Part shown: positions 30,926 to 46,818 of the stretch, one piece after another | Layout of the letters: each line of letters opens with the position of its first letter | Numbering within the stretch: the stretch's first letter is position 1 | Assembly (NCBI RefSeq): GCF_014202415.1 | Contig: NZ_JACHGR010000005.1 | Coordinates: 186,001-250,000, forward strand | Length of the DNA stretch: 64,000 nt | DNA from: Tolumonas osonensis | Lineage (GTDB): Bacteria > Pseudomonadota > Gammaproteobacteria > Enterobacterales > Aeromonadaceae | Direction: 5' to 3' | Notes under the pieces: generated by a model | Database searches by the model: none | Told to the model about the DNA's origin: nothing | The model's input: only the letters and a program-made list of their open reading frames with translations | Position numbers and translations under genes: made by a program

Positions 30926-32269
30926 ATGAAATACTCTTCTTCGCACCAATTTTTGCAATATGTCGCCGATCGCAATCCTGGTCAGCCTGAATTCCTGCAA
31001 GCCGTCACCGAGGTAATAGAAAGTCTCTGGCCCTTCATTGAAAGACATCCAAAATATGCGGAGCATGGTCTGCTCGATCGCCTGGTGGAACCGGAACGTG
31101 TGGTTATGTTTCGTGTTTCCTGGGTTGATGATCACGGTCAGGTTCAGGTCAATCGTGGCTATCGCATTCAGCACAGTATGGCCATTGGGCCCTACAAAGG
31201 CGGTATTCGCTTTCATCCATCCGTTAACCTGTCTGTACTGAAATTTCTGGCTTTCGAACAAACATTTAAAAACGCATTGACCACCCTGCCCATGGGCGGC
31301 GGTAAAGGCGGTTCAGATTTTGATCCCAAGGGGAAAAGTCCGGCTGAAATCATGCGCTTTTGTCAGGCCTTCGTCAGTGAACTATTCCGTCATGTCGGAT
31401 CCGATACCGACGTACCCGCCGGTGATATAGGCGTTGGCGGCAGGGAAGTCGGTTATATGGCCGGCATGATGAAAAAACTCAGTAACAGAGCAGACTGCGT
31501 ATTCACCGGCAAGGGACTGAGTTTTGGCGGTTCGCTGATTCGTCCGGAAGCCACAGGCTATGGCACTGTTTATTTTGCCAATGAGATGCTGAAGACCAAA
31601 GGACGCTCTTTTAATGGCTTGCGCGTCAGTGTGTCAGGTTCCGGTAACGTAGCGCAGTATGCGGTAGAAAAGGCGATGTCTCTGGGTGCCAGAGTCATTA
31701 CGGTATCCGATTCCAGCGGAACGGTAATAGATGAGCATGGTTTCACGCCTGAAAAACTCGCTATTCTGATGGAAGTGAAAAACCATAACTACGGCCGTGT
31801 CAGCGATTATGCTCAACGTGTCGGAGCCCGCTTCGAACCCGGTGTACGTCCGTGGCACGTACCCGTGGATGTAGCCCTGCCCTGCGCAACGCAGAATGAA
31901 CTGGATGTAAATGATGCGGCAGCCCTGATCAAAAACGGTGTCATATGTGTAGCAGAAGGTGCCAATATGCCCGCGACTATCGAAGCGGCCAAAGCGTTTG
32001 AGGCTGCCGGGGTACTGTATGCACCAGGCAAAGCCAGCAATGCGGGCGGCGTTGCCACCTCGGGTCTTGAAATGAGCCAGAATGCGATGCGGATATCCTG
32101 GTCACGCGAGGAAGTAGATGCTCGTCTGCTACAAATCATGCAAGGCATCCATGCCGCCTGCCTGCATTATGGCAAACGATCCAATGGCAGCGTAAGTTAT
32201 GTGGACGGAGCAAATATCGCCGGATTTGTCAAAGTGGCTGATGCCATGCTGACTCAAGGGGTGATTTAA
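30926..32269 (+). CDS. gdhA: NADP-specific glutamate dehydrogenase
   Basis: A 447-residue enzyme for reductive amination of 2-oxoglutarate, matching the E. coli length. It has the substrate region VNRGYRIQHSMAIGPYKGGIRFH, the PMGGGKGGSDFDPKGKS block with the catalytic lysine region, the VGGREVGYMAGM segment and the nucleotide-binding VSGSGNVAQYA. TTGAGGTT precedes the ATG. A neighbouring NtrC-like palindrome suggests nitrogen control together with the aap operon. Confidence 0.97.
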   Translation: MKYSSSHQFLQYVADRNPGQPEFLQAVTEVIESLWPFIERHPKYAEHGLLDRLVEPERVVMFRVSWVDDHGQVQVNRGYRIQHSMAIGPYKGGIRFHPSVNLSVLKFLAFEQTFKNALTTLPMGGGKGGSDFDPKGKSPAEIMRFCQAFVSELFRHVGSDTDVPAGDIGVGGREVGYMAGMMKKLSNRADCVFTGKGLSFGGSLIRPEATGYGTVYFANEMLKTKGRSFNGLRVSVSGSGNVAQYAVEKAMSLGARVITVSDSSGTVIDEHGFTPEKLAILMEVKNHNYGRVSDYAQRVGARFEPGVRPWHVPVDVALPCATQNELDVNDAAALIKNGVICVAEGANMPATIEAAKAFEAAGVLYAPGKASNAGGVATSGLEMSQNAMRISWSREEVDARLLQIMQGIHAACLHYGKRSNGSVSYVDGANIAGFVKVADAMLTQGVI

Positions 32270-32413: not shown

Positions 32414-33262
32414 ATGCCTCGCTCATATCAACGCATCCCTTTTCTTATTGCGCTTTTTCTTTCCGGATGCGCCTCCGGCCCGTCGGATAAGACAGCACAG
32501 CCGGATCAGATGAAGATCGATCCCATCACGGCTTCCCAGAAGTGCGTTTCTCTGGATACCGCCGGTAACTACGACGGTGCTTTCCCGTACTGCAAGGCAT
32601 CTGCTGAAAATGGTAATACGTATGCTCAGACACTGACAGGCTCAATGTATTTCCGGGGAAAAGGTACACCACAGAATTTCGAACAAGCCGCCTACTGGTT
32701 TCAGAAAGTCGCCAAACACGGTGATGTGAATGCGCAGGCTCTTGTCGGCTCGTTATATTATGAAGGCAAGGGTGTTCCGCAAAGTTATGATCAGGCCAAT
32801 TACTGGTTTCAGCAGGTCGCAAGACAGATAGAACTCAATGCGATGGTGCTCGTGGGCGCCATGTATTATGAAGGACAATGGGTTTACCAGGACTACCAGC
32901 AAGCGGCAATCTGGTATCAACGCGCCGCCGAACAGGGTGATGACAACGCTCAGTTCCGCCTCGGCACGATGTATTACGACGGGCAACTCCCGCAGGATTT
33001 CGCACAGGCCGCCTACTGGTACCAGAAATCGGCCGAACAGGGCAACTTTAACGCTCAGGCATTTTTAGGCGGCATGTATTACGAAGGGAAAGGTGTAGAG
33101 AAAGACAACAGGAAAGCTTATGCCTGGCTGTCTGTCGCTGCCGCTCATAATCAGGAAGCCATTGCCGCCCGCGACTCTGTGGCCGCGCAGCTTTCCCCTG
33201 ATGAACTGATTGAGGCACAGGTTCTTTCTGCCGAATACTTTCAGAAATATTCCGTTAAATAG
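32414..33262 (+). CDS. Sel1-repeat lipoprotein
   Basis: A 282-residue predicted lipoprotein with lipobox LSGC near residue 19 (the following ASGP has no Asp at +2, so outer-membrane sorting is expected). About five Sel1-like repeats of 36 residues fill residues 60-255, with recurring AQ..LG.MYYEGKGV and QAAYWYQKAAEQG elements. Sel1 proteins act as binding scaffolds; no partner is evident. AATAAGG precedes the ATG. Confidence 0.88.
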   Translation: MPRSYQRIPFLIALFLSGCASGPSDKTAQPDQMKIDPITASQKCVSLDTAGNYDGAFPYCKASAENGNTYAQTLTGSMYFRGKGTPQNFEQAAYWFQKVAKHGDVNAQALVGSLYYEGKGVPQSYDQANYWFQQVARQIELNAMVLVGAMYYEGQWVYQDYQQAAIWYQRAAEQGDDNAQFRLGTMYYDGQLPQDFAQAAYWYQKSAEQGNFNAQAFLGGMYYEGKGVEKDNRKAYAWLSVAAAHNQEAIAARDSVAAQLSPDELIEAQVLSAEYFQKYSVK

Positions 33263-33393
33263 CAAACCCGCCGTCAACAGGAGCCGCTTTTCATAAAGAA
33301 AGCGGCTTCCGGCTGGATTTTCAGCAGTAACATGATAAATTGCGCGGCAAATCCGTTCGCTCAGCCGTATCTCTGTCGTATCGATTCAACGCC

Positions 33394-34344
33394 ATGCAAA
33401 TCCGATCACACAATAACTCCGTTCAGAAAGAGCTTAACTCGCATAAACCTGAATCGCTCAACCTGCAGTCAGCCCCGCCGCATCTTAAGCCCTGCACCTT
33501 TGTACTGCCGCACGGCCACTGGCCAACGGTTCTGGATTGTCTGTGTGACAGCTTCCCTGCCATCCATCGTCAGCACTGGCTTAGCCGGTTTGAACGGGAA
33601 CTCGTGCTGGATAATCATCGGCAGCCAATCCGGCATGATCGACCACACCAGACCGGCCTGCGGATTTACTATTTTCGCGAAATTGCCAACGAAAAAGAGA
33701 TCCCCTTTTACGAATCCATCCTCTATATGGATGAGCATCTGCTGGTGGCGGATAAACCGCATTTTCTGCCGGTCACCCCGAGCGGTGATTATGTGTCGCA
33801 AACACTGCTGTCACGGCTGATAGCTCGCTTCCAAAATCCCGAACTGCAGCCATTGCACCGGATTGATCGCCATACCGCAGGGCTCGTGCTGTTTTCCGTG
33901 CAAAAGAAAACACGTGGCCTCTATCAGGCCCTGTTCCGTGATCAAAAAATAGATAAGTGTTATGAGGCGATCGCACCGGCCTTACCCCAGCTCAGCTTCC
34001 CGCACACCCGCGCAACGAGGATTGTTCGCGGCGATCCGTTTTTTCTGTCTCAGGAAGTTGACGGAGAGGTCAATGCGCAGACCATCATTGATGTCATCGA
34101 ACAGCGCGGTGATTTATGCCGGTATGCCCTGCAGCCGGTTTCCGGCAAAAAACATCAGCTACGCCTGCATATGGCAGCGCTTGGCGCACCAATTTGCAAT
34201 GACGCGCTTTATCCGGTTGTGAATGATGCTATTGCGGATGATTATGAAAAGCCGCTGCAACTGCTTGCCAGCGACGTCACTTTTGTCGATCCGCTCAGCG
34301 GGACGCCGCGGTATTTCAAAAGTGAGCTGAGATTAGACTGGTGA
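33394..34344 (+). CDS. RluA-family pseudouridine synthase
   Basis: A 316-residue pseudouridine synthase. The catalytic motif is HRIDRHTAGLVLFS near residue 170, followed by the SGKKHQLRLHMAALGAPI block. The N-terminal part resembles the PSRA_1-type subgroup with LPHGHWPTVLDCLCDSFP. It differs from the one at 30063-30719 in length and N-terminus. The start at 33394 (MQIRSH) is the first ATG; the frame is open to a TTG at 33340. The target RNA is unknown. Confidence 0.87.
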   Translation: MQIRSHNNSVQKELNSHKPESLNLQSAPPHLKPCTFVLPHGHWPTVLDCLCDSFPAIHRQHWLSRFERELVLDNHRQPIRHDRPHQTGLRIYYFREIANEKEIPFYESILYMDEHLLVADKPHFLPVTPSGDYVSQTLLSRLIARFQNPELQPLHRIDRHTAGLVLFSVQKKTRGLYQALFRDQKIDKCYEAIAPALPQLSFPHTRATRIVRGDPFFLSQEVDGEVNAQTIIDVIEQRGDLCRYALQPVSGKKHQLRLHMAALGAPICNDALYPVVNDAIADDYEKPLQLLASDVTFVDPLSGTPRYFKSELRLDW

Positions 34345-34424
34345 AAACTGTCGGCCAGTACAGCCACCGTCAAAAGAATTAAACTCAATCCTGATGACGA
34401 TGACCGGAGATAAATGAATATTTA

Positions 34425-34649
34425 TTACTCACCCGGTGTGACATCAATTGTTTTTAACATTTGCTTGAGTTCGGCAACCCCCTCTTCACCGGGAAGAGTA
34501 ACTGCCACATTGAGGATATTGTCTGCAAACGATTCTTCTAACCATGGACATGACGCGGTCACAACTCTGATTGGATAACCATGAAAATGAGGTAATACAA
34601 GGTTGTGATGAATGAAATGCTCTTTTTGTAATTTTTCGACATTAATCAC
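34425..34649 (-). CDS. Small hypothetical protein
   Basis: A 74-residue protein that I do not recognise. It starts with GTG at 34649, 7 bases after GGAG, which supports real translation. It contains no signal peptide or membrane segment and ends in an acidic, helix-prone segment (GEEGVAELKQMLKTID). It lies between a pseudouridine synthase and the broken TonB receptor, and may belong to the older chromosomal backbone. Confidence 0.55.
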   Translation of the reverse strand: MINVEKLQKEHFIHHNLVLPHFHGYPIRVVTASCPWLEESFADNILNVAVTLPGEEGVAELKQMLKTIDVTPGE

Positions 34650-34854
34650 GACGACTCTCCGCTAGCTTGGTGAGTCTTTGTTATAACAGACCTGATCCCC
34701 GCTTAATCAAACCTGCATCACCAAAATTGACTTTGGCTGAACAACAATACAATCAGGATGTTATCTACGTCGCAATAATCCTTAATCAGTACTAAAGACC
34801 AAAAATCATGGGCAGGCGAAAAGGTGACCATCCCCCTCCGCGCTGCCCAGTGGG

Positions 34855-35817
34855 TCAGAATTTCATCTGACCTTCCAGTACATAGGTCCTTCCTGGCATT
34901 GGCAGGCGGCCAACAGGACTAACGTCCGAACCGCGGAAGTAAGCGTCGTCATCCAGCAAATTGTTTATCCCCCCACTCAGATTCAGCTCCAGACCATTCC
35001 CTAAAGAAAAATCACGCCCCAGATGCGCGTTAACAAGAGTATAACCAGGTAACTCTCCCGCATCGCCATTAGCAGTTTCAGTGATGGTGTTGGCGGCATC
35101 GCTGAAACTTCTTGATGCATACAGAGCACTGGCGCTTGCAGTCCACGGTCCCGTTTTATAAACGGATTCGGCGCTGACATGATGACGAGGCGCATTAGGC
35201 AGTGCTTTACCGGCGTTTTTACCGCTTAACTGTTCTGTATCAAGCCAGGTATAACCAAGCCCTAGGGCCAGTTTCTCGGTTGCCTGCCAGCGGTTTTCCA
35301 GTTCGATCCCCTGCTGACGGGTTTCACCCAAGTTCTCATAGATATTCTGAGCTTTGTTAAACTGAATCTGATCCTTGTAGTCGATGCGGAATAACGTCGC
35401 GGACAGCTCAACCTCATCCAGTGGCTGCCAACGCGTCCCCACTTCATAGTTCCAGGCGATTTCATTAGCCACCTGACCTTCATAGATGACTTGCGCAGTC
35501 TGTACCGGTACCAGAGAACGCTGGGCATTGGCAAAGAGGAAGACGTCATCGCTGGCCTGCAGCCCCAGCGTCAGACCGGGCAGCCAGGCCGTAGCCCGGT
35601 TATCACTGGTGGCGCCGCTACGCTGATCCACATAATCGGTACGCACATCCTCATAACGGACGCCCGGCGTGACAGTGAAACGATCATCCATGAAATGCAT
35701 GGTGTCACTGACATAGTAGGCCATCGCATCAGTATCGAATTGCCAGCGCCGGACCGCCGAGTAGGAATAATCGGCCAGCTTAGTCCGGTAATACCTGAAC
35801 CAGTTTCCCTTCCCGAA
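34855..35817 (-). pseudogene. TonB-dependent receptor, C-terminal fragment
   Basis: About 320 codons of the barrel of a FecA-like TonB-dependent receptor. Barrel text such as DRFTVTPGVRYEDVRTDY, EIAWNYEVGTRWQP, TRQQGIELENRWQ and LNLSGGINNLLDDDAYFRGSD leads to the terminal aromatic residue (EGQMKF). Upstream the frame reaches RYYRTKLADYSYSAVRRWQ and is then broken by TGA at 35818-35820. The plug, TonB box and signal peptide are absent, so it is a 5'-deleted remnant. The DNA beyond the break, to about 35910, is unrelated and open on the plus strand. Confidence 0.85.
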
Positions 35818-36049
35818 TCACTGAATTTGCAGAGAAAGAGGGTAAGCGGGCGATTCCGAGTCCGAATGGCCTATGCCGATATTGAAGCTCTGACAGGGAA
35901 AGCATTATGAACACTTTGGATTATTCCTGATATTACTCGCTGGCGGCCGCCATACCCGCAACGTACAATTCTCTACTTGTGGGGTGCCGGCCCTGGTTCG
36001 AAGCAGACATGAAATAGCATAACCTGATTAATTGGAGTGACCGTTTACT

Positions 36050-36544
36050 ATGCATCCGTTTGACATTCTCACGTTAGACAACGGCGCAAAGCTGATTTTT
36101 ACACCTTGTCCGGGAACAAAGGGCATTTCGTTATCCGATTCGCTGACTGCGTTGAAAAACGCTGGAGCACAAGCCGTCATTACCATGATGACAACAGCCG
36201 AATTAATTGAAAATCAGGCTGATTCGATCCCGTCTCTTTGTGCTGATTTGGGTATGGACTGGTATCACTTGCCGGTTGAAGATGGTTGTGCACCGCAAAC
36301 GCCATTTGCTGAGGCGTTTGCTGCACAGAAACCCATTTTGCTGGATTTGGTCACATCAGGCGCGACGCTGGTGATCCACTGTCACGGTGGTACGGGTCGC
36401 ACTGGTCTGATGGCCGCTATTCTGATGCTGGAATTGGGCTATGAGTCTGCCGAGGTTAAAGCCCGGATCCAACATATCCGTCCAAAATCGCTGACTTCAG
36501 CCGTTCAGGTTGGCTATCTGGTTGAGCATTATTCGTATACATAA
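36050..36544 (+). CDS. Dual-specificity protein phosphatase, CDKN3-like
   Basis: A 164-residue cysteine-based phosphatase. The P-loop Cx5R is VIHCHGGTGRTG (C111, R117), and D78 in LPVEDGC is placed to act as general acid. The layout matches the CDKN3/KAP-like group of bacterial dual-specificity phosphatases. The ATG follows GGAGTGACC. Substrates are unknown. It stands alone, with yfgJ convergent 12 bases downstream. Confidence 0.88.
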   Translation: MHPFDILTLDNGAKLIFTPCPGTKGISLSDSLTALKNAGAQAVITMMTTAELIENQADSIPSLCADLGMDWYHLPVEDGCAPQTPFAEAFAAQKPILLDLVTSGATLVIHCHGGTGRTGLMAAILMLELGYESAEVKARIQHIRPKSLTSAVQVGYLVEHYSYT

Positions 36545-36556
36545 CATGATGGAGCA

Positions 36557-36790
36557 TCAGGGCGAAACGGGTGTGACGCGGAACTCAACCCGTTTTTTAG
36601 AAATCAGCTCATTGCATGTATTACAGAAAAAATCGACAGAACAGCATTTAAATTTTTGTAGTTCCGCATGACAGGTTGGACAGAACCCCACAATATTGAA
36701 TTCTTTTTTGCAATGGATACAGGCGACAGGACTATATCGCGGATCCAGCCCCTCCTTCTGGCAAGCCGGGCACTTGATAAAGTAAGTCAT
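36557..36790 (-). CDS. YfgJ-like zinc-ribbon protein
   Basis: A 77-residue protein with four CxxC pairs (CPACQ, CIHCK, CPTCH, CNTC), hence two zinc ribbons. The C-terminus VDFFCNTCNELISKKRVEF closely matches the E. coli YfgJ ending. The start at 36790 has AGGAGG upstream; the longer frame to 36829 lacks one. The function is unknown. Confidence 0.85.
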   Translation of the reverse strand: MTYFIKCPACQKEGLDPRYSPVACIHCKKEFNIVGFCPTCHAELQKFKCCSVDFFCNTCNELISKKRVEFRVTPVSP

Positions 36791-37301
36791 AAACCCCTCC
36801 TCTGCGGCACTGTATCGATCAGTGACCACACTAATTCAACTCTCCTTTAAGTTTAGTTTTCTCAATAGTGAAAAGGCTTTGGTCTCAGGAAATATATTTT
36901 TCTGGTTTTATCCATCTTCAATTCGGTCATGATTGGCTGAATCATTTATGCCCCATTCCGAGTTTAGTTAGCTCACATCTGTCCTAATGTGTGAGAGAAA
37001 CTATGACATGTCGCTATCGCGTCATGTACCCATATCAGTTTGACAAAAATCAGTAAAAGCTAAGATACATGCAACTTTTAATTGTCCTTAATCAGTCTCA
37101 TCCGGCATCATAAAATCCTATGGAAACACGGAATTATTCCGTATTTTGGCTGAGCTACCGCTTTGGCGATAGCTATGGAAAGACTGCACCCTGTAATAGA
37201 AGGGGCTGATAAATCCAGGTATCCGAACGCTAATAGCGGCACCAACAACTGCATCATCTAAAGTGGGAAATATGAATGCAAAAATTCTGGCAAGAGACTA
37301 A
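36791..37301. other. Non-coding gap upstream of the defence gene
   Basis: This 511-base, AT-rich gap holds no gene-length frame. It contains a CTCACA/TGTGAG hairpin at 36972-36995. A nine-codon frame (ATG at 37272, MNAKILARD) has its stop directly abutting the ATG at 37302 in the same frame; this may be a leader that couples translation or simply chance. No insertion-sequence end or recombinase gene was recognised. Confidence 0.5.
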
Positions 37302-40300
37302 ATGAGCATCGCAGGAATACTCTCCAACCGTGGCGATATTTATCAGACCCTTGTTGCCTTCGATTGGGCATTAACCGTCCTATCCGATCCCGAATTTCAA
37401 TGGCTTGAGATAGATTCTACGACCTATCTGGTAGATGATGTTGTAATTGGAAAATCCGACGGTTCCCTAATTTGTTGCCAGTGCAAAAAGAACCAAACCG
37501 ATTTCAGGGCATGGTCGATAACTGATCTTGCGGATGAACTGGACAAGGCGACTCTAGCACTGACTGGAAATAAACAAGCCCAAGTCCGCTTCTATTCGCG
37601 TAGCGAGTTTGGCTCACTCGCCAAACTACGTGAATTCAGCACCCTCCATGGCAATGAGGCCGATTATCTTGCGAAATTGACCAAAGAGCATAATAAAACA
37701 AATAGCGACTTGGCTGCTCGCATTGCCGATAAGGTGACCAATCTTTCGACGTATGAATTCCTACACCGTACCTCCTTCGAGATCACCCCAGACTTTGATC
37801 GCATGGAGATTTTACTACGTGAACGTTTGCGCCAAATGGCAAGTAACTCAGATGCTGCCTTCAACGCTCTTTGTATACGCCTCGATAAACTTGGTGGTCG
37901 TATAGAGGACGGCAACCTATCCGCCTCAACCCAGCATCGACTGACCAAAGACGACATCAAAGATATTCTTCATCGCTCTGGCGCAATGCTCGTTCCTAGC
38001 ATGGACATTTCAGAGGTACGAAAATCGTTTGCCAGCACTTCGGTCATTGGCAGGCATTGGCATCGGGACATTGCCGGGCAGCGCATTTCTAGCCCAGTTG
38101 TGGGGGAACTCCTAGCAGCTATCGATGCCAAGAAACGTTCCGTCTTGCTTACGGGTCTGCCTGGTTCTGGCAAAACCTGTGTGATGCTGAGCCTGCAAGA
38201 AGCACTAGAACAACGTATGCAAGCCCGAGGTGACCTAGTGCCGCTCTTTATACAGTCACGAGAATTCGCCGACCTAGCGACGGCGCTGGAACGCCAGGCA
38301 CAGGGCCTGCCAGTACAATGGGTAGAACAGGCCGCCCGTTTAGCTGAAGACGCACATGTTGTCGTAGTTATTGACTCACTGGATGTCTTGTCCATCGCTC
38401 GCGAACACAGCATATTGACGTACTTTCTGGCACAAATTGACCAGTTGCTACTGATTCCCAATGTTACCGTTATCACAGCTTGCCGCGACTTCGACCGTAA
38501 ATACGACCGACGCATTGCTGCACGGCAATGGGACTGCGAATTGCAGTGCCTGCCGTTGGACTGGGAGAATGAAATTGTACCGCTTCTTGACAAGCTTGGA
38601 ATCGATTCGACGACTATTGATTCCGTCACCCGTGAACTGATCTGTAATCCTCGCGAACTTGCCCTGTTTGTCGAACTGGCGCAACGTGAAGGCTGCTTCA
38701 ACGTAGTGACCAGTCAAGCACTGGCGCAACGCTACCTCGATACCATCGTAAAGGCCGATCCAACGCTGGGGGATGCAGCCATGCAAGCGATTGAAGCCAT
38801 CGCCGACGCAATGCTGAAGTCACGCAGCCTGTCTATTTCTAATCAACGCTTCAATGCTTCAGAGGACATCCTGCGACGACTCCACAGTCTCAATGTTCTG
38901 CTCGATACCCATGATGGTAAATTGACGTTTGGCCATCAAACTCTACTAGATGTACTGGTGATTAGTAGCGCTGTGCGCCGGGTCGTCTCGCTCAATAAAT
39001 TCATCCAAGACTTGCCTCCTGTGCCCTTCGTACGTCCGAGTATACGTAGCTTTGTTGCACAGTTGGCGACTGGAGATCGCCGCGAATTTAGGAAGCAACT
39101 GCGGACAGTACTGACAGGCAACGCCGCCTTCCATATCCGCCGCCTGATTGCCGAATCATTTTCCCAGCAGATGCCTCTGGATGATGACTGGCCGCTTATA
39201 CGAGATTTGCACGCCCATCATCGCGAGGTGTTTCAGGTGATTTACAACCAAGCATCGTTGGTTGAGTGGCATCACTTTTGGCTTTCTCATCTGGTTCCCG
39301 CATTGAAGGAAACGCTCGATGCCGATGGACTGACAGCCCATATTCATCGGGTAGCGCAGTGGGCAAATGATGATGCTACTGGCGTATTGGCATTCTGGAT
39401 GGATGCAATTGCTTTAGATTGGCTAGATGGCAACAGAATCTCAGAGCAATTAGTTTTTTCTCTATCCGACTTTCGGACAGAAAATTTACCACTTGTTGCC
39501 CCCTTACTAAAGCGACTACTCAGTATGCCGAAACCAGACCATAGTTTATTGGGGCGTACTGTTGCACGTAGTGTCACTGCTGGCGCTATTGATGATAAAG
39601 ACTTATGGCGCTATATCACTGGTGAGATCAATGATGATGATGTATTGAAATTTCATTTTGATAATAAACTGCATTGCCAAGCCCATGAGTTTGGCGACAA
39701 GGATGAAGATTTCCTGAAACAGAGGATGGTGGAATCCACTGCTTTACTTGATTTAGCACTGGAAACAATAGAACAATGGAGCCAACTTCGATCAACGCGT
39801 TATGGTGATACCCGAATAGGCTATCGCAGTGGATTCCTGAGTGGCACATCTTATAGCGATAATCACACGCAGAACGATCATACATACATAAATAGTGAAC
39901 GAGTTCTGCTAGATGCAATTGAAGCAGCCATTCTCAATCACGCCCAAAATCACTCCAACTGGTGGGAAAATAACCGCGAACGCTTATGCTTTAACCACGA
40001 AGGGGCATTATGTTACTTCGCCATCCTCGCTTTCATCAGTAACCCAGAGGCAAATATAGACTTGATCGGTCGCCTGTTATGCGACAGCAATTTACTCGAA
40101 TTCGAACTCTCCTATGAATTAGGCACATTGATTCAGACTGCATTTATTTACCTAGATAGCCATACACAAGATTCAGTCATGGCAACAATACAGACCTTGT
40201 GGGAGGATGAACCAGCAACGGATGAGGAAACACGTTTATGGGTTCTGAAGAAACGAGCAGAATATATATCCACGATCCCATGCCATATGCGTTCATCAGA

Positions 40301-41873
40301 AATGCAGGCGATACTAGATAGATTCGAAAAGTTATATGGGACATTTTGTCGACAGCCATATATCGGCATGAGAGGAGGCACTGTCGCCGCGCCATTTTCA
40401 TATGAGGTGTTCCTCAATGCCAGTGATGGTGGGATACTTCATTTGCTCGCACACTACACTGGACATAACCGAGATTTCGATGACTTTTTAGTCGGTGGTG
40501 AACGAGAGGTCGGTTGGCAGCTACGCGAGGCTTCATCTCGCCACCCATCGCGATTCTTGGGAATACTGAAATCCCATTGGGCAGATATTTCATCAGGATT
40601 TTGCAATGATATCATGGACGGTATTGCCAACTACCTGGCACATCGCTATGGCAACTTGCAACCTAACGCTACTTGGATACCGATCGATGAGCCTGATGCA
40701 CCTGCCTTGGCGAACCAAATCCTTGATGAACTGGAAAGACATCCCGCTCACTGGCAACTTAATCGCTCCGCTGCTAAGGCTTTGGAAGCCTGTGCGCATG
40801 TCCTCCAGGACACACAAACTGCTATGCGGCTGGTGTTCTTATCGATAGGCTTTGGAAAACTTAAGGAAGAAAGCTCCATTCATGGGGATTCAGGCGATTT
40901 GCTTACCACTGGTATCAATATGATTACCGGGAATATCGCCGAAGCCTTGATGATCTTGGTCAACAATTTTCAAGAGCAGAAAATTGCATTACCCGAATTG
41001 TTACCACCAACACTACGTCGATTTGCCAGCAAGAAACACCCTGCCATTCGCGCTCTAATTTTGAGACGTTTGCCGTACCTCCAAAGCCGGTATCCTGAGT
41101 TGGGTTGGGATTTATTTGACCATGCCATGCTGGATTCCGTGGGTCTTTGGAAATCCGCAGAACGTTGTCTGTATTGCGCCTATCACGATCTCTTCGAGAA
41201 GGTTGCTCCCTTGCTTGAGCGCCTCCGTTACGAGGGCAGCAAGGAAGATATGGAAACTTGGGGACGCATTTCAGCACTGTCTGCCCTAACGGGTCATATC
41301 AATTTTGCTGACTTGCTTAGAGAATTGAACACATTGGACATTACTGAAGCTTGGCAGGGAGCGGCAAGTGTTTGGACTAATCCTAACAATATCAAACAGC
41401 ATCGCGAGCAATGTCTTACAGGTATCGAGACGGGACTAAGAACAGACAGTCGTCATGCAGCGATAGTTGCTCGACAGACCGAGAAAATCTTTCGGGACAA
41501 AACGCCACCTATCTCCATCCCGGTTGAATTGATTCAACTGTGCTTCAATGTGTTCGAGATTGATAGTGAAAACAAACATCACCGGCTGTTTGGGTTTGAC
41601 GAATGGCTCAACGCCATTTCACAGCGCGATCCAGATCTCGCCTTGACTACAACAGAAATTTACCTAGCCTATGTTGGTCGTGCCAAGACTTATTTTTACG
41701 ACCATAACAATCAGCTTGTCCAGCTAGTGACCCGGCTTTTTGCAGAAGCTGAGGAACGGGAAGAATCCGATCGAGGTACGATGCTTAAACGTGTGGTATC
41801 TGTGCAAGATTTGCTATTGTCACTGGGAGTTAATTCCGTTAATGATTGGCTAAAGATAGCTGAGAGGCAATAA
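37302..41873 (+). CDS. Nuclease-STAND NTPase, candidate anti-phage defence protein
   Basis: A 1523-residue single-gene system. Residues 1-200 resemble a DUF4297/Cap4-type PD-(D/E)xK nuclease: the opening GDIYQTLVAFDWAL, then D46 in VDDVVIG and Q60-x-K62 in CCQCKK. Residues about 240-560 form a STAND/NACHT-like NTPase with Walker A GLPGSGKT (285-292), Walker B VVVVIDSLD (353-361) and a sensor arginine in ITACRDFDR (R395). The remaining 950 residues are helical with no recognised catalytic motif, consistent with a repeat-type sensor as in Avs proteins. The RBS is weak. No partner gene is adjacent. The Avs subtype was not determined, and the function is inferred. Confidence 0.8.
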   Translation: MSIAGILSNRGDIYQTLVAFDWALTVLSDPEFQWLEIDSTTYLVDDVVIGKSDGSLICCQCKKNQTDFRAWSITDLADELDKATLALTGNKQAQVRFYSRSEFGSLAKLREFSTLHGNEADYLAKLTKEHNKTNSDLAARIADKVTNLSTYEFLHRTSFEITPDFDRMEILLRERLRQMASNSDAAFNALCIRLDKLGGRIEDGNLSASTQHRLTKDDIKDILHRSGAMLVPSMDISEVRKSFASTSVIGRHWHRDIAGQRISSPVVGELLAAIDAKKRSVLLTGLPGSGKTCVMLSLQEALEQRMQARGDLVPLFIQSREFADLATALERQAQGLPVQWVEQAARLAEDAHVVVVIDSLDVLSIAREHSILTYFLAQIDQLLLIPNVTVITACRDFDRKYDRRIAARQWDCELQCLPLDWENEIVPLLDKLGIDSTTIDSVTRELICNPRELALFVELAQREGCFNVVTSQALAQRYLDTIVKADPTLGDAAMQAIEAIADAMLKSRSLSISNQRFNASEDILRRLHSLNVLLDTHDGKLTFGHQTLLDVLVISSAVRRVVSLNKFIQDLPPVPFVRPSIRSFVAQLATGDRREFRKQLRTVLTGNAAFHIRRLIAESFSQQMPLDDDWPLIRDLHAHHREVFQVIYNQASLVEWHHFWLSHLVPALKETLDADGLTAHIHRVAQWANDDATGVLAFWMDAIALDWLDGNRISEQLVFSLSDFRTENLPLVAPLLKRLLSMPKPDHSLLGRTVARSVTAGAIDDKDLWRYITGEINDDDVLKFHFDNKLHCQAHEFGDKDEDFLKQRMVESTALLDLALETIEQWSQLRSTRYGDTRIGYRSGFLSGTSYSDNHTQNDHTYINSERVLLDAIEAAILNHAQNHSNWWENNRERLCFNHEGALCYFAILAFISNPEANIDLIGRLLCDSNLLEFELSYELGTLIQTAFIYLDSHTQDSVMATIQTLWEDEPATDEETRLWVLKKRAEYISTIPCHMRSSEMQAILDRFEKLYGTFCRQPYIGMRGGTVAAPFSYEVFLNASDGGILHLLAHYTGHNRDFDDFLVGGEREVGWQLREASSRHPSRFLGILKSHWADISSGFCNDIMDGIANYLAHRYGNLQPNATWIPIDEPDAPALANQILDELERHPAHWQLNRSAAKALEACAHVLQDTQTAMRLVFLSIGFGKLKEESSIHGDSGDLLTTGINMITGNIAEALMILVNNFQEQKIALPELLPPTLRRFASKKHPAIRALILRRLPYLQSRYPELGWDLFDHAMLDSVGLWKSAERCLYCAYHDLFEKVAPLLERLRYEGSKEDMETWGRISALSALTGHINFADLLRELNTLDITEAWQGAASVWTNPNNIKQHREQCLTGIETGLRTDSRHAAIVARQTEKIFRDKTPPISIPVELIQLCFNVFEIDSENKHHRLFGFDEWLNAISQRDPDLALTTTEIYLAYVGRAKTYFYDHNNQLVQLVTRLFAEAEEREESDRGTMLKRVVSVQDLLLSLGVNSVNDWLKIAERQ

Positions 41874-42071
41874 CTAATCCCTCATGAAAAGAGGTCCGCT
41901 CTTTAGCCGACCTTATCAAGACTTGTTCACAATGAGACGAATGCCCCTAACTAAGCGACACATAGATAACACGCTTTTGTCCATTTGCGTGGCACTGCCA
42001 TATATCAAGACATCACTTTTTGACTGCTATACTGAAAAAATAGTAGCCTTTGCTGATATTCGACAGAACGT

Positions 42072-42845
42072 ATGAATACCACTCGATCCTTTGTGAAGCT
42101 GACATGCGGAACGGTTGGAATGCTACTTGCGCTAACCGCCCTTGCCTGGCAAACGCCAATTCTAGTCTACCACCGGTTTGCGCAGACCGCCGAGGACAGC
42201 ATGACGGTTCGTGCCGCCGTTTTTCAGCAACAGCTCGATCAGATCGATAGAGATGGCTATCAGGTAATCCCGCTCAAGCGCCTCGTCGATCATCTCCTTG
42301 GCCTAGCGCCGCCTCCACCCGTCAAGTCGATTGTCATCACTGCCGATGACGGCCACGAGTCGGTTTACCGGGCGATGGCGCCGATCACCATGCGTGCGCG
42401 TATTCCGGTGACGGTATTCATCTACCCTTCGGCAATCTCCAATGCGAGCTATGCGATGACCTGGCATGAAATCGACGAACTCAAGCGGAGCGGTTATTTC
42501 GACATCGGATCCCACTCGTACTGGCACCCGAATTTCTTCCGCGAGCGGCAAAGGCTCGATCCTGCCGCCTACGCGCGCTTCGTCGATGACCAGCTGGTCC
42601 GCTCGAAGGCGGTCTTGGAACGGAAAGCGGGGGCTCAGGTCGATCTGCTCGCTTGGCCCTTCGGCCTGGTGGACCACGAGCTCGAAGCGCATGCCCGGAG
42701 GGCCGGCTATGTCGCGGCTTTTACGCTGGAGCGTCGGCCAGTGCGCGAGGGCGACGACCCCATGGCCCTGCCGCGTTACCTGATCACCGACGCCGTCGGG
42801 GCGAAGGCATTTGCCGTCATCCTTCATGAAGCGGACGCGAAATGA
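42072..42845 (+). CDS. Polysaccharide deacetylase-family protein
   Basis: A 257-residue NodB-fold protein. The metal-binding motifs are visible as ITADDGHES (first motif, near residue 93) and GSHSYWHPN (second motif). A hydrophobic N-terminus (residues about 9-26) implies export or membrane anchoring. The segment after LVYHRF recalls PgaB-type deacetylases. DNA from about 42.1 kb is distinctly richer in GC than its surroundings, and codon choice shifts accordingly, which points to transfer. Its stop overlaps the next gene by four bases. Confidence 0.85.
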   Translation: MNTTRSFVKLTCGTVGMLLALTALAWQTPILVYHRFAQTAEDSMTVRAAVFQQQLDQIDRDGYQVIPLKRLVDHLLGLAPPPPVKSIVITADDGHESVYRAMAPITMRARIPVTVFIYPSAISNASYAMTWHEIDELKRSGYFDIGSHSYWHPNFFRERQRLDPAAYARFVDDQLVRSKAVLERKAGAQVDLLAWPFGLVDHELEAHARRAGYVAAFTLERRPVREGDDPMALPRYLITDAVGAKAFAVILHEADAK

Positions 42846-44104
42846 ATACGGCTAGCCGCTTTGTTCTGATCTTCCTCGCCTTGTTCCGGGTTTCGGCCCT
42901 AGAGGCGTCGATCGAGATCGTCTCCGTGGTGAATGCAGTAGATGGGCGACCCATCGCGGGCGCGCTGGTGACCGCAGAAGGTCGCGTCGAGGCCGCCGAT
43001 GGGCAGGGCAGGCTGACATTGCCGGCACCGGCAACGTGGGTCGCGGCGCGGGCGCCGGGTTATTTGCGGACGCATGTGCAGGACGCCAGCCCCATTGCGC
43101 GAAATGAGACCATCCGGCTGACGCCTTTTCGACCGAAGGCGCTATACCTGTCGTTCTACGGTATCGGCGACAAGGCTCTGCGTGAATCCGCGCTCAAACT
43201 CATTGCCACGACCGAACTGAACGCTCTGGTGATCGATGTTAAGGGGGACCGCGGCCGCATTCCCTATCGCAGTGCCGTGGCGCTGGCGGCGGACAGCGGC
43301 GCTCAGAAGGTGATAACCGTGCGCGACATGCCCACCCTGATTGCCCAGTTGCACGCAGGCGGCGTCTACCTGATAGCTCGCGTGGTCGCCTTCAAGGACG
43401 ACCCCCTGGCGCGTACCCATCCGGAATGGGCGGTGCGAGACAGGAACGGTCAGATCTATGTCGATCGGGAGGGACTGGCGTGGATCGACCCATTTCGCGG
43501 CGAGGTGCGGGACTACGTTCTCGACGTGGCCGAGGAGGCCGCGCGCCTCGGCTTCGACGAGATCCAGTTCGACTATCTGCGTTTTCCCGATGCACCCGGC
43601 CTCGTATTCGCAGAGCTGCCCACCCAGACCAACCGTGTCGCCACCATCAGCGGTTTCCTGTCCGAAGCGCGCCGTCGCCTGGCACCCTATAATGTCTTTG
43701 TGGCAGCCGACATTTTTGGCTATGTGCTCTGGAATCGGGATGACACGGCTATCGGACAGCGCTTGGAAGATTTGGTCAAATATCTGGATTACGTTTCACC
43801 CATGCTCTACCCATCCAACTTTCAGTTCGGCATCCCTGGGTACCGCAATCCGGTCGCCGTGCCAGGGGAAATTGTCAGATTGTCGCTGCGCAATGCCGTC
43901 AAGCGCACCGGTTTGCCACCCATACGCTTCCGTCCGTGGCTTCAGGCGTTCCGCGATTATGCGTTTGACCGGCGTCTGTTCGGGGCGGACATGATCCGTG
44001 CCCAGATCGAAGCCGCGGAGGCTTTCGGATCGGATGGCTGGATGCTATGGAACCCTCGCAACGCCTATGGCGAGGCCGGATTGCGGGCGAAGACGCAGCA
44101 ATGA
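42842..44104 (+). CDS. Putative glycoside hydrolase, DUF4015-like
   Basis: A 420-residue exported protein. After a signal peptide (to about residue 20) comes a short carboxypeptidase-regulatory-like fold (VVNAVDGRPIAGALVTAEGR), then a TIM-barrel-type domain resembling the putative glycosyl hydrolase family PF13200/DUF4015: LNALVIDVKGDRG, YLIARVVAFKDDPLA, FDEIQFDYLRFPD and YVSPMLYPSNF. Pairing with a deacetylase resembles PgaB, where a deacetylase and a hydrolase are fused. It is strongly GC-rich like its partner. Confidence 0.82.
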   Translation: MNTASRFVLIFLALFRVSALEASIEIVSVVNAVDGRPIAGALVTAEGRVEAADGQGRLTLPAPATWVAARAPGYLRTHVQDASPIARNETIRLTPFRPKALYLSFYGIGDKALRESALKLIATTELNALVIDVKGDRGRIPYRSAVALAADSGAQKVITVRDMPTLIAQLHAGGVYLIARVVAFKDDPLARTHPEWAVRDRNGQIYVDREGLAWIDPFRGEVRDYVLDVAEEAARLGFDEIQFDYLRFPDAPGLVFAELPTQTNRVATISGFLSEARRRLAPYNVFVAADIFGYVLWNRDDTAIGQRLEDLVKYLDYVSPMLYPSNFQFGIPGYRNPVAVPGEIVRLSLRNAVKRTGLPPIRFRPWLQAFRDYAFDRRLFGADMIRAQIEAAEAFGSDGWMLWNPRNAYGEAGLRAKTQQ

Positions 44105-44145
44105 AACGCTGGTTCCTGCTGCTGGCTTGCTTTACTGAACATTAA
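44101..44145 (+). pseudogene. Truncated third gene of the GC-rich cluster
   Basis: The bases ATGA link the preceding stop to a new start, and the frame opens like a signal peptide (MKRWFLLLACF) but stops after 14 codons. Composition returns to the AT-rich host type at about 44130-44140. This looks like the cut end of an imported operon. Confidence 0.6.
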
Positions 44146-44331
44146 CCTTCACCAGGCTACTCTTAAATTTGCTCAAATTTTACCAACAAGTTGTTTTTGG
44201 ATACGCAAAATAGAGACTTAAAGACTCACGATTCGTAACATGAATAATTTTCATCACGAAGGGAGCACCTGGAATACTGCTATGACTGAAAAAGGTATGG
44301 GCTGATGTATGGAGCGAACGAATACACAAAC

Positions 44332-44360
44332 AAAAAAGCCCGCTTATTCAGCGGGCTTTT
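44332..44360 (-). terminator. Terminator downstream of tRNA-Ser
   Basis: Stem AAAAGCCCGCT / AGCGGGCTTTT; read on the minus strand it ends in a run of T after the tRNA. Confidence 0.88.
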
Positions 44361-44370
44361 CCGTGGTATC

Positions 44371-44461
44371 TGGCGGAGAGATAGGGATTCGAACCCTAGA
44401 AGGGCTACAAACCCTTGCCGGTTTTCAAGACCGGTGCATTTAACCACTCTGCCATCTCTCC
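44371..44461 (-). tRNA. tRNA-Ser(TGA)
   Basis: A 91-base type II tRNA with encoded CCA. The acceptor stem GGAGAGA pairs with TCTCTCC, the anticodon loop CTTGAAA gives anticodon TGA, and the long variable arm is AAGGGTTTGTAGCCCTT. Its 3' end faces the accessory region, the usual orientation for island insertion next to a tRNA. Confidence 0.97.
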
Positions 44462-44643
44462 GTGGTTGCGGCGCATATTACTAAAGCTTGTAAATGTTGT
44501 AAATACGAAAGGCTGCTTGCACAACCTGACTGAACAGTTATTAAGCTGATTCACCAGAGATTCTCATATAAAACTGTTGTTTTGTGCCCGCTTCTGTTTT
44601 GATTATTATAAATAACATACTTGTTTAATGGTCTTTAGCCAGC

Positions 44644-46818
44644 ATGCTTGCGTTTACCCGACTTTTACAGCGTTTTATCACCGATACGCATGTCTTTTTC
44701 GCCTTAAAAGTATCGTGTGCTCTGGCCGGCGTGCTTCTGCCCGGACTTTATCTCGGCATGATCCATGAAACGGTAGCCATGTCGCTGGGCATTGTGGCTG
44801 GAGCGATTGCCGAGCCTGATGATTCGCCTGCCGGACGGGTCAAATCATTACTGCTGACACTAGCATGTTTCTGGATCGCCACTTTGTCGGTGCAACTGCT
44901 GTACCCCTACCCTTGGTTCTTTGCGGCCGGGCTTTTATTTTCCACCTTCTTCTTCGTCATGCTGGGTGGACTGGGTAAACGTTACAGCAGCATTAGCTTC
45001 GGCAGTCTGCTGGTTGCGGTATATTCCATGATGGGCGCAGCGCAGGCGCCGACCATCTGGTTTCAGCCAGTCTGGTTATGTACTGGTGCCCTGTGGTATG
45101 GATTTATTTCTTTATGGTGGTTGCAGTTAACCCCCAATAAACCATTACGTGAACAAATTTCGCAGACCTGCTTTTCGCTGGCCCGCTATTGCACCCAGAA
45201 AGCCTGGCTGTTTCCCAGCAATGCCGATGAACAGCAGAGTATTCATCAGAAACTGGCTATTCTGAATGTGGACTGCATGGCCTCGATTAACCTATGCCAG
45301 GAGATGATCGCTCGCCGGACTGATCCTTCCGATCAGGAATTACGGCAGTTAAAAGCGCTGCAGACGATTACCGAACAGATCCATGAGCGGATCACATCCA
45401 GTCACTACCTCTATAATCGATTGAAGGACGATGTGCACAGCAATCTGCTGCTCGACGGTTTCCGTGAATTACTCCGGCAACTCGGCGTTGCCGTGCAGCA
45501 ACTCGGTTACGCGACCCTGTTGAACAATCCTTTCCAGCTTTCGCCGGGATTACTCTGGGGTATTCAGGCACTAGGAGATCAGCTGCAATTCAGTCATGAA
45601 AGAACGCCGTTTTCTGCGAATACCGTTAATGCGCTACGTTTCTTACAAAAGAACCTGCTCGAGATTGTGCTTTTGCTGAATTCGGTTAATGACGTGCTCT
45701 CCGCAGCAGGCATGCAGTCACCGGAAAGCAAAGACACGCCAGTGCCCCCTGCACCGTCAGTATTACAACAAATCAAACTGCAGTTCAGTTTTAAATCGCC
45801 GCTGTTCCGTCACGCCTGCCGCATGAGTCTGTGTCTGGTCGCCGCTTATGGTTTGCTGCAACTATTTGATATAAAACAGGGTTTCTGGGTATTACTGACG
45901 TGCTTGTTTGTTTGCCAGTCCAGCTATACCGCAACCCGCCGACGTCTTTATCAGCGTATTGCCGGAACCTGCAGCGGCCTGCTACTCAGTCTGCCTTTGC
46001 TATGGTTTTCACCGGAACCCGGCGTTCAGCTGATTCTGATGGCCATTGCCGCTGTCCTGTTTTTTGCCCAGTTAAGAAGTAATTACAGCGTAGCGGTCAT
46101 CTTCATTACCTTATATGCCATGACCGCGTTCGGCCTGCTGGGTGTCGAAGAAAAAAGCATCATTCTGCCGCGTTTTGTCGATACCCTGCTCGGCAGTATA
46201 CTCTCGTTCGGTGCGGTTACCGTCTTATGGCCGGAGTGGCAATATCAGCGCATTCCGGAGTTGCTGGCCAAGGCGACCCGCTGCAACTATGAATATCTGA
46301 AATCGGTTATTTCTGCCTTGCAAAACACCGGGCAGGACAAGCAATTCAGCCGGAAACGGATCGCCGCCCATCATGCTGACAGTGCGCTGGCTCAGGCATG
46401 GATAAATATGCAGACCGATCCGAAGCAGCAGCGACGGTACACCAATTTATGTGCTGCGCTGATATACCGTAACCACAGCCTGTTATCCTATGTCTCGGCA
46501 CTCGGCATTCATCAGGAATTACATGGTTCCTTATTCGAGCCACAACTGATTAAATACGCTCAATCGTTGTTTGATGCACTGGATGAATCAGTCACAGCCT
46601 TATCAGGTAAACACAATACCCATCCGGTGGTGCTGGCATCGTTATCGCCGGCACTTTACATTGAATCAGTGGCTGATACCGATCAGCGCGCCGGTCTCAT
46701 CCGGCAGGAAATGATGCATATCGGTATCATGACAACTGAAATACTGAAACTATCCCGATTGTTAAACCCGCTGATACAAAGCCACAGCGCAGATAAATCT
46801 TTTTTCCGGAGTAAATAG
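44644..46818 (+). CDS. yccS: FUSC-family inner-membrane protein, YccS-like
   Basis: A 724-residue protein with the YccS/YhfK layout: a first membrane block of about six helices (residues 20-165), a cytosolic helical region, a second membrane block (about 400-525) and a soluble C-terminus. GTCARP-like TATRRRLYQRIAGTCSGLL lies in the second block. Relatives include aromatic-acid exporters and fusaric-acid resistance proteins; the substrate here is unknown. tusE starts on the base after its stop. Confidence 0.85.
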   Translation: MLAFTRLLQRFITDTHVFFALKVSCALAGVLLPGLYLGMIHETVAMSLGIVAGAIAEPDDSPAGRVKSLLLTLACFWIATLSVQLLYPYPWFFAAGLLFSTFFFVMLGGLGKRYSSISFGSLLVAVYSMMGAAQAPTIWFQPVWLCTGALWYGFISLWWLQLTPNKPLREQISQTCFSLARYCTQKAWLFPSNADEQQSIHQKLAILNVDCMASINLCQEMIARRTDPSDQELRQLKALQTITEQIHERITSSHYLYNRLKDDVHSNLLLDGFRELLRQLGVAVQQLGYATLLNNPFQLSPGLLWGIQALGDQLQFSHERTPFSANTVNALRFLQKNLLEIVLLLNSVNDVLSAAGMQSPESKDTPVPPAPSVLQQIKLQFSFKSPLFRHACRMSLCLVAAYGLLQLFDIKQGFWVLLTCLFVCQSSYTATRRRLYQRIAGTCSGLLLSLPLLWFSPEPGVQLILMAIAAVLFFAQLRSNYSVAVIFITLYAMTAFGLLGVEEKSIILPRFVDTLLGSILSFGAVTVLWPEWQYQRIPELLAKATRCNYEYLKSVISALQNTGQDKQFSRKRIAAHHADSALAQAWINMQTDPKQQRRYTNLCAALIYRNHSLLSYVSALGIHQELHGSLFEPQLIKYAQSLFDALDESVTALSGKHNTHPVVLASLSPALYIESVADTDQRAGLIRQEMMHIGIMTTEILKLSRLLNPLIQSHSADKSFFRSK

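Follow-up and report, generated by a model that had tools for sequence, protein, structure and literature searches.

What does the large gene at 37302..41873 of a 64,000-nucleotide stretch of the Tolumonas osonensis genome encode (contig NZ_JACHGR010000005.1, positions 186,001 to 250,000; the whole stretch is hereafter the window), and what would its product guard against? An earlier note, made from the sequence alone, had proposed a nuclease fused to a STAND NTPase that cuts DNA on sensing phage. Our follow-up indicates that the 1523-residue product (the window protein) is very probably a stand-alone STAND protein (NLR-like, of the bNACHT/Avs type) acting as an anti-phage abortive-infection sensor. 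It is a further member of a known STAND kind, in a family already studied structurally through entries in the PDB. The gene and its parts are as follows (fractions are of 43 aligned proteins).

37302..41873, + strand: single gene for the nuclease-NACHT-sensor STAND protein, 1523 aa (intact open reading frame, full-length phmmer match to PDB chain 9n00_A, 56 related loci)
37302..37961, + strand: N-terminal Cap4/DUF4297-type PD-(D/E)xK nuclease domain, residues 1 to about 220
37437..37439, + strand: D46, candidate metal-binding acid of the nuclease (invariant, 43/43)
37479..37487, + strand: Q60-C61-K62, the (D/E/Q)xK motif (K62 in 43/43; Q60 in 42/43, E in one)
38004..38981, + strand: NACHT/STAND NTPase module, residues about 235-560
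38154..38177, + strand: Walker A motif GLPGSGKT, residues 285-292, with K291 (G288, G290, K291 and T292 invariant, 43/43)
38358..38384, + strand: Walker B motif VVVVIDSLD, residues 353-361, with D358 and D361 (both 43/43)
38484..38486, + strand: R395, conserved arginine (43/43)
38982..41870, + strand: C-terminal helical-repeat arm, presumed sensor, residues 561-1523

The open reading frame has 1523 codons, an ATG start and no internal stops; a promoter/terminator scan of 36800-42100 gave no promoter-like site upstream of it, the matches lying below the shuffle mean. Predicted structural models and structure comparison place its parts in the tripartite order of STAND/bNACHT proteins (effector, NACHT NTPase, C-terminal part), and family scans, structure prediction and structure comparison all bear out the nuclease, STAND/NACHT NTPase and helical C-terminus that the earlier note had read from the letters. 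In the predicted model of residues 1-620 a Cap4/DUF4297-type nuclease with the PD-(D/E)xK fold stands at the N-terminus, with the NACHT module after it. Structure prediction for the 964 residues at the C-terminus gives alpha-helices almost throughout, and we infer that this arm is the sensing part of the protein.

The nuclease domain carries GDIYQTLVAFDW at residues 11-22 and has the mark of the Cap4/DUF4297 type, a PD-(D/E)xK core with an acid and a (D/E/Q)xK motif; from this pattern D46 is predicted to be catalytic. By structure comparison its nearest solved folds are those of HerA-DUF4297, Cap4, HamA and LmuA, and its Pfam match is labelled ‘Cap4, dsDNA endonuclease domain’. The window protein shares its nuclease fold with these effectors, but they act with SAVED, HerA, SMC-like or helicase partners, whereas here the nuclease is fused to a NACHT switch. 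Within that switch, R395 is presumably a sensor-1 type arginine. The arm (residues 560-1523) is predicted to form helical repeats (mean pLDDT 87.5, pTM 0.57), and its structural matches are mostly general helical-repeat protein-binding folds. The Avs4 structure 8dgf supplied the first VIA row for this arm, tied with COPI and importin rows, and was also the top Foldseek match for residues 1-620, with a loose superposition (TMq 0.29, rmsd 21.0). Given this loose superposition and the tie for the arm, we did not take the structural match as a sign that the protein belongs to Avs4.

Conservation was assessed in an alignment of 43 proteins, comprising the window protein and 42 relatives with an open reading frame from genome contigs (36-91% identity to the window protein). 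These relatives were taken from 56 loci, leaving out six with in-frame stops over the matched span and eight partial matches; one relative truncated shortly before the C-terminus (L011, matched over residues 1-1499) was retained. The matched span is 1514 to 1525 codons in the other 41. Every motif listed in the earlier note lies where it was placed. Because D46, K62, K291, D358, D361 and R395 are kept across all 43 aligned proteins, and Q60 in 42 of them, the motifs of the window protein are not there by chance.

The closest relative in the PDB is chain 9n00_A (‘AAA family ATPase’, 1523 aa), which phmmer matched over residues 1-1522 with 2163 bits and whose sequence is also carried by entries 9n01 and 9yix. 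It is a full-length homologue, but a different member of the family, with 62% identity to the window protein in the first 300 residues. The next phmmer match in the PDB was the pachytene checkpoint protein 2 ATPase (E 0.11, or 1.2e-04 with the 43-protein profile). The existence of a full-length relative with solved structures makes the window protein less novel. In the literature searched, which mostly excludes subscription papers, the codes 9N00, 9N01 and 9YIX did not occur and no paper could be tied to the window protein. The three entries are also not among the listed structure-search matches (library end date 2026-04-08); since so close a relative should rank first, the three presumably lie outside the structure library. 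Nor did any of four phage chains queried for co-occurrence with 9n00, 9n01 or 9yix appear alongside them in the PDB, a result that covers only these four (T7 portal, T4 portal, T7 major capsid protein, and T7 large terminase without its last part).

How does the protein compare with named defence systems? The earlier note could not assign the sensor to a named Avs type, and PADLOC agrees: no Avs model is among the matches of the window protein at E<=1, none matches its N-terminal half at E<=0.01, and none is among the 25 of 36 PADLOC families listed for the 43 members together. The best PADLOC model for the window protein is PDC-M54A (E 1.5e-06, best stretch residues 444-550), a match covering about 110 of 1621 model positions; this model (PDLC04702) matches 39 of the 43 N-terminal halves at E<=0.01 and fits a Mrr-STAND protein (4.6e-17) better than the window protein. 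In the order of its parts (nuclease, STAND, helical sensor) the window protein resembles Avs1-4, and Avs4 especially, with a Cap4/DUF4297-like effector unlike the one in Avs4, which is of the Mrr kind. By description only, it can also be likened to bNACHT25/32 of clade 6, which combine a PD-(D/E)xK nuclease, a NACHT module and a C-terminal sensing part (PMC12169576). There, the D48A substitution in the PD-(D/E)XK DNase abolishes defence by bNACHT25/32, MS2 infection leads to DNA degradation in their presence, and phage sensing by bNACHT25 requires the host chaperone DnaJ (PMC12169576). The nucleases of Avs1-4 cleave phage and host genomes upon recognising phage packaging or other proteins (PMC12931631), with terminase cited as the target of Avs1-3 and portal as that of Avs4 (PMC12724215).

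The 56 related loci come, by record label, from Pseudomonadota, Nitrospirota, Cyanobacteriota, Chlorobiota and other phyla. In the tree, strongly supported cross-phylum groupings, e.g. Chlorobium with Legionella steelei and Geobacter with a Myxococcota bin, suggest transfer. Phyla are nevertheless mostly clustered, with 9 label changes where shuffling gave a mean of 13.7 and with the cyanobacteria all to one side of a branch, and many rows are metagenome bins. Closer to the host, occurrence is patchy. The gene is in none of ten further genomes of the genus, of which six reach 90% completeness or more, and one full-length copy was found in the rest of 61 genomes. An order-level survey of 394 genomes gave three full-length copies (that of the host included), together with a distant Mrr-STAND protein and a genome holding fragments. 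The last (G359; L096, L097) probably carries a relative in decay, since only short pieces are present and one is interrupted by in-frame stops. A nucleotide search of E. coli genomes with the first 3999 bases of the gene gave no match, nor did a protein search of phage records. Four relatives (52-69% identity) lie on IMG/VR viral contigs (L060-L063), which may reflect copies carried in prophages or mis-binned host DNA.

Some distant relatives carry another effector on the same body. Five cyanobacterial plasmid records hold relatives of about 30% identity, four of which match only from residue 210 onward. The N-terminus was checked in one of the five, from a Tolypothrix plasmid: this protein has 32% identity to residues 210-1520 of the window protein, and a Peptidase_C14 (caspase) domain replaces the nuclease. 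The swap is not phylum-wide, since other cyanobacterial records (L009, L011, L030, L047) bear the nuclease form. A more distant relative (G048) has 23% identity over residues 253-681, an Mrr-type N-terminus and a weak match to the Avs4 model (1.2e-04). A single NTPase-sensor body with varied effectors is typical of STAND immune proteins. On a conjugative cyanobacterial plasmid (L074, 2891-8020) the genes flanking a caspase-NACHT-sensor relative are annotated as a trypsin-like protease and another member of the caspase family. The annotation of a Nostoc plasmid (L075, 4001-9826) splits the relative into two genes, separated by one for an IS630 transposase.

Does the gene act with a partner? On either side of the 42 relatives we collected up to two open reading frames, none shorter than 110 aa (153 in total). 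Homology between loci was confined to five neighbour pairs, and none of the five neighbours in the window had a counterpart, so that no partner gene common to the loci was found among these 153, in keeping with the single-gene system proposed earlier. At E<=1e-15, PADLOC gave 93 families for the 80 nearest neighbours and 85 for the 73 next ones; 25 are listed per set, each in one or two proteins, and as several models can match one protein the number of proteins is not exactly countable. Those listed include GajA, GajB, AbiEi, AbiEii, type I and IIG restriction genes, PDC-S03, PDC-S06 and DRT-kind reverse transcriptases. A control of 75 open reading frames (the five nearest the middle of each of 15 arbitrary stretches of the host's relatives, out of 149 listed) gave one PADLOC family, in two proteins. 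At one locus (G031; L092, 2458-6027 (-), 6426-11000 (-) and 11061-12422 (-)) a full-length relative with 60% identity has on one side an mnmE-like gene, recognised by eye, and on the other a DSR2 gene, which PADLOC matched over almost the full length (E 1.9e-139). The Mrr-type nuclease-STAND protein of G048 (1528 aa; L091, 3571-8157 (+) and 10395-11837 (-)) is likewise near an mnmE-like gene, again by eye. STAND defence genes may settle repeatedly at the mnmE-like site.

The place of the gene in its own chromosome was compared with five same-genus stretches. Two further features of the window belong here.

33263..44370, no strand: variable chromosomal segment with the STAND gene, ending beside tRNA-Ser(TGA) (comparison of five same-genus stretches)
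44371..44461, - strand: tRNA-Ser, right edge of the variable segment (ARAGORN, Rfam)

The right flank (tRNA-Ser and the next gene) is matched in all five stretches and the left flank in two. The interval between these flanks measures 8.5 kb in one of the two (G007), where it includes a type I restriction-modification system (hsdM, hsdS, hsdR), and only 2.7 kb in the other (G009). In G007 (L069, 6652-13828) an extra 309-aa open reading frame, with no Pfam match at E<=0.001, lies between hsdS and hsdR. The gene at 30926-32269 in the flank, which by eye resembles glutamate dehydrogenase, had no match in six same-genus genomes and was dropped as an anchor. A 22-base piece from the 3' part of the tRNA-Ser occurs once in the window with three mismatches allowed, and no direct or inverted repeats of at least 18 bases were reported in 33000-45000; these scans, which included no search aimed at an integrase gene, did not find an element boundary.

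Several lines support the anti-phage reading indirectly: the patchy occurrence, the finding of no common partner gene among neighbours of 110 aa or more, the defence genes near some relatives, the sister genome that has a type I restriction system in the corresponding place, and the caspase-bearing relative with the same NACHT-sensor body. The Avs-like abortive defence of the earlier note stands as regards architecture, and its defence role is supported indirectly, by genomic context and by the effector swap in a relative. Other observations weigh against it. The window protein scores below the cut-off of the Pfam NACHT model, no PADLOC model of a named system spans it, and the LmuA model matched only on scanning the N-terminal half alone. 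Many nearest neighbours of the relatives are, by Pfam, ordinary or mobile-element genes (e.g. SpoU methylase, FGAR-AT, carbamoyltransferase, resolvase, transposase), and the control proteins came from the host's relatives, not from genomes bearing homologues. In the window itself Pfam gave no defence families among the neighbours examined, and a phosphatase gene at 36050-36544, the only window neighbour scanned with PADLOC, had no match there.

By analogy with characterised Avs and bNACHT proteins, the protein would work as follows. In the resting state, the Cap4/DUF4297-type nuclease would be inactive and held separate. On infection, the 960-residue helical arm would bind a cue, most likely a protein of the phage, and the NACHT module would then open and oligomerise in an ATP-dependent manner. 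The nuclease domains, brought together, would then cut DNA with little selectivity, so stopping phage growth at the cell's expense. Ligand binding by the arm, oligomerisation, the DNA substrate and the abortive outcome are all modelled on those proteins.

The alternative that survives best, unlikely as we judge it to be, is a STAND DNase directed mainly against plasmids or other invading DNA, or one sensing a change of host state (e.g. chaperone or translation failure) and not a phage protein directly. The trigger cannot be read from the sequence, the structural rows of the arm are mostly of the general kind described above, and the dependence of bNACHT25 on DnaJ offers a precedent (PMC12169576); yet phage-defence genes adjoin some relatives, and phage proteins are bound by Avs1-4, whose architectures are the closest among those of known trigger (PMC12931631). 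We think it improbable that the N-terminal domain is an RNA cutter or a regulated nickase in place of a general DNase: PD-(D/E)xK folds act on several nucleic acids, but the nearest folds here (HerA-DUF4297, Cap4, HamA and LmuA) are those of DNases, and the Pfam label points the same way. A signalling or metabolic AAA/STAND regulator with no defence role, such as a MalT-kind transcription regulator, is hardly credible against the conserved nuclease active site, the caspase-bearing relative, the spread over several phyla and the defence neighbours at some relatives.

If the window protein is an anti-phage sensor, the testable point remaining is what its arm detects. Each STAND defence family with its own sensor indicates a phage feature conserved enough to merit detection. 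The present family has sharp outlines: its length hardly varies, its active sites are invariant, no common neighbour was found, it occurs in several phyla and one member has solved structures. Its trigger can therefore be sought directly with phage genes expressed alongside. Nuclease and caspase on one NACHT-sensor body form a natural pair for asking whether the arm alone sets specificity. We regard as a serious possibility, falling somewhat short of an even chance, that these proteins form a separate, widespread STAND family outside Avs1-5, of about 1520 aa and unusually constant length, whose arm is conserved across phyla and joined mostly to a DNase and on some cyanobacterial plasmids to a caspase-type protease, with one conserved and hitherto undescribed phage cue read out by interchangeable killing domains.

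The variable segment looks composite, since G+C rises to 60% at 42001-44000, against 47-49% on both sides, and polysaccharide deacetylase and DUF4015 genes lie immediately downstream of the STAND gene. An open reading frame at 34855-35724 (-) looks like a remnant, its match to the Pfam model of the TonB-dependent receptor barrel being confined to the C-terminal part (positions 173-436 of 436). Upstream of the STAND gene, the small gene at 36050-36544 (+) is dual-specificity-phosphatase-like, with Tc-R-P (polymorphic toxin phosphatase) and PTP-SAK as its best Pfam models.

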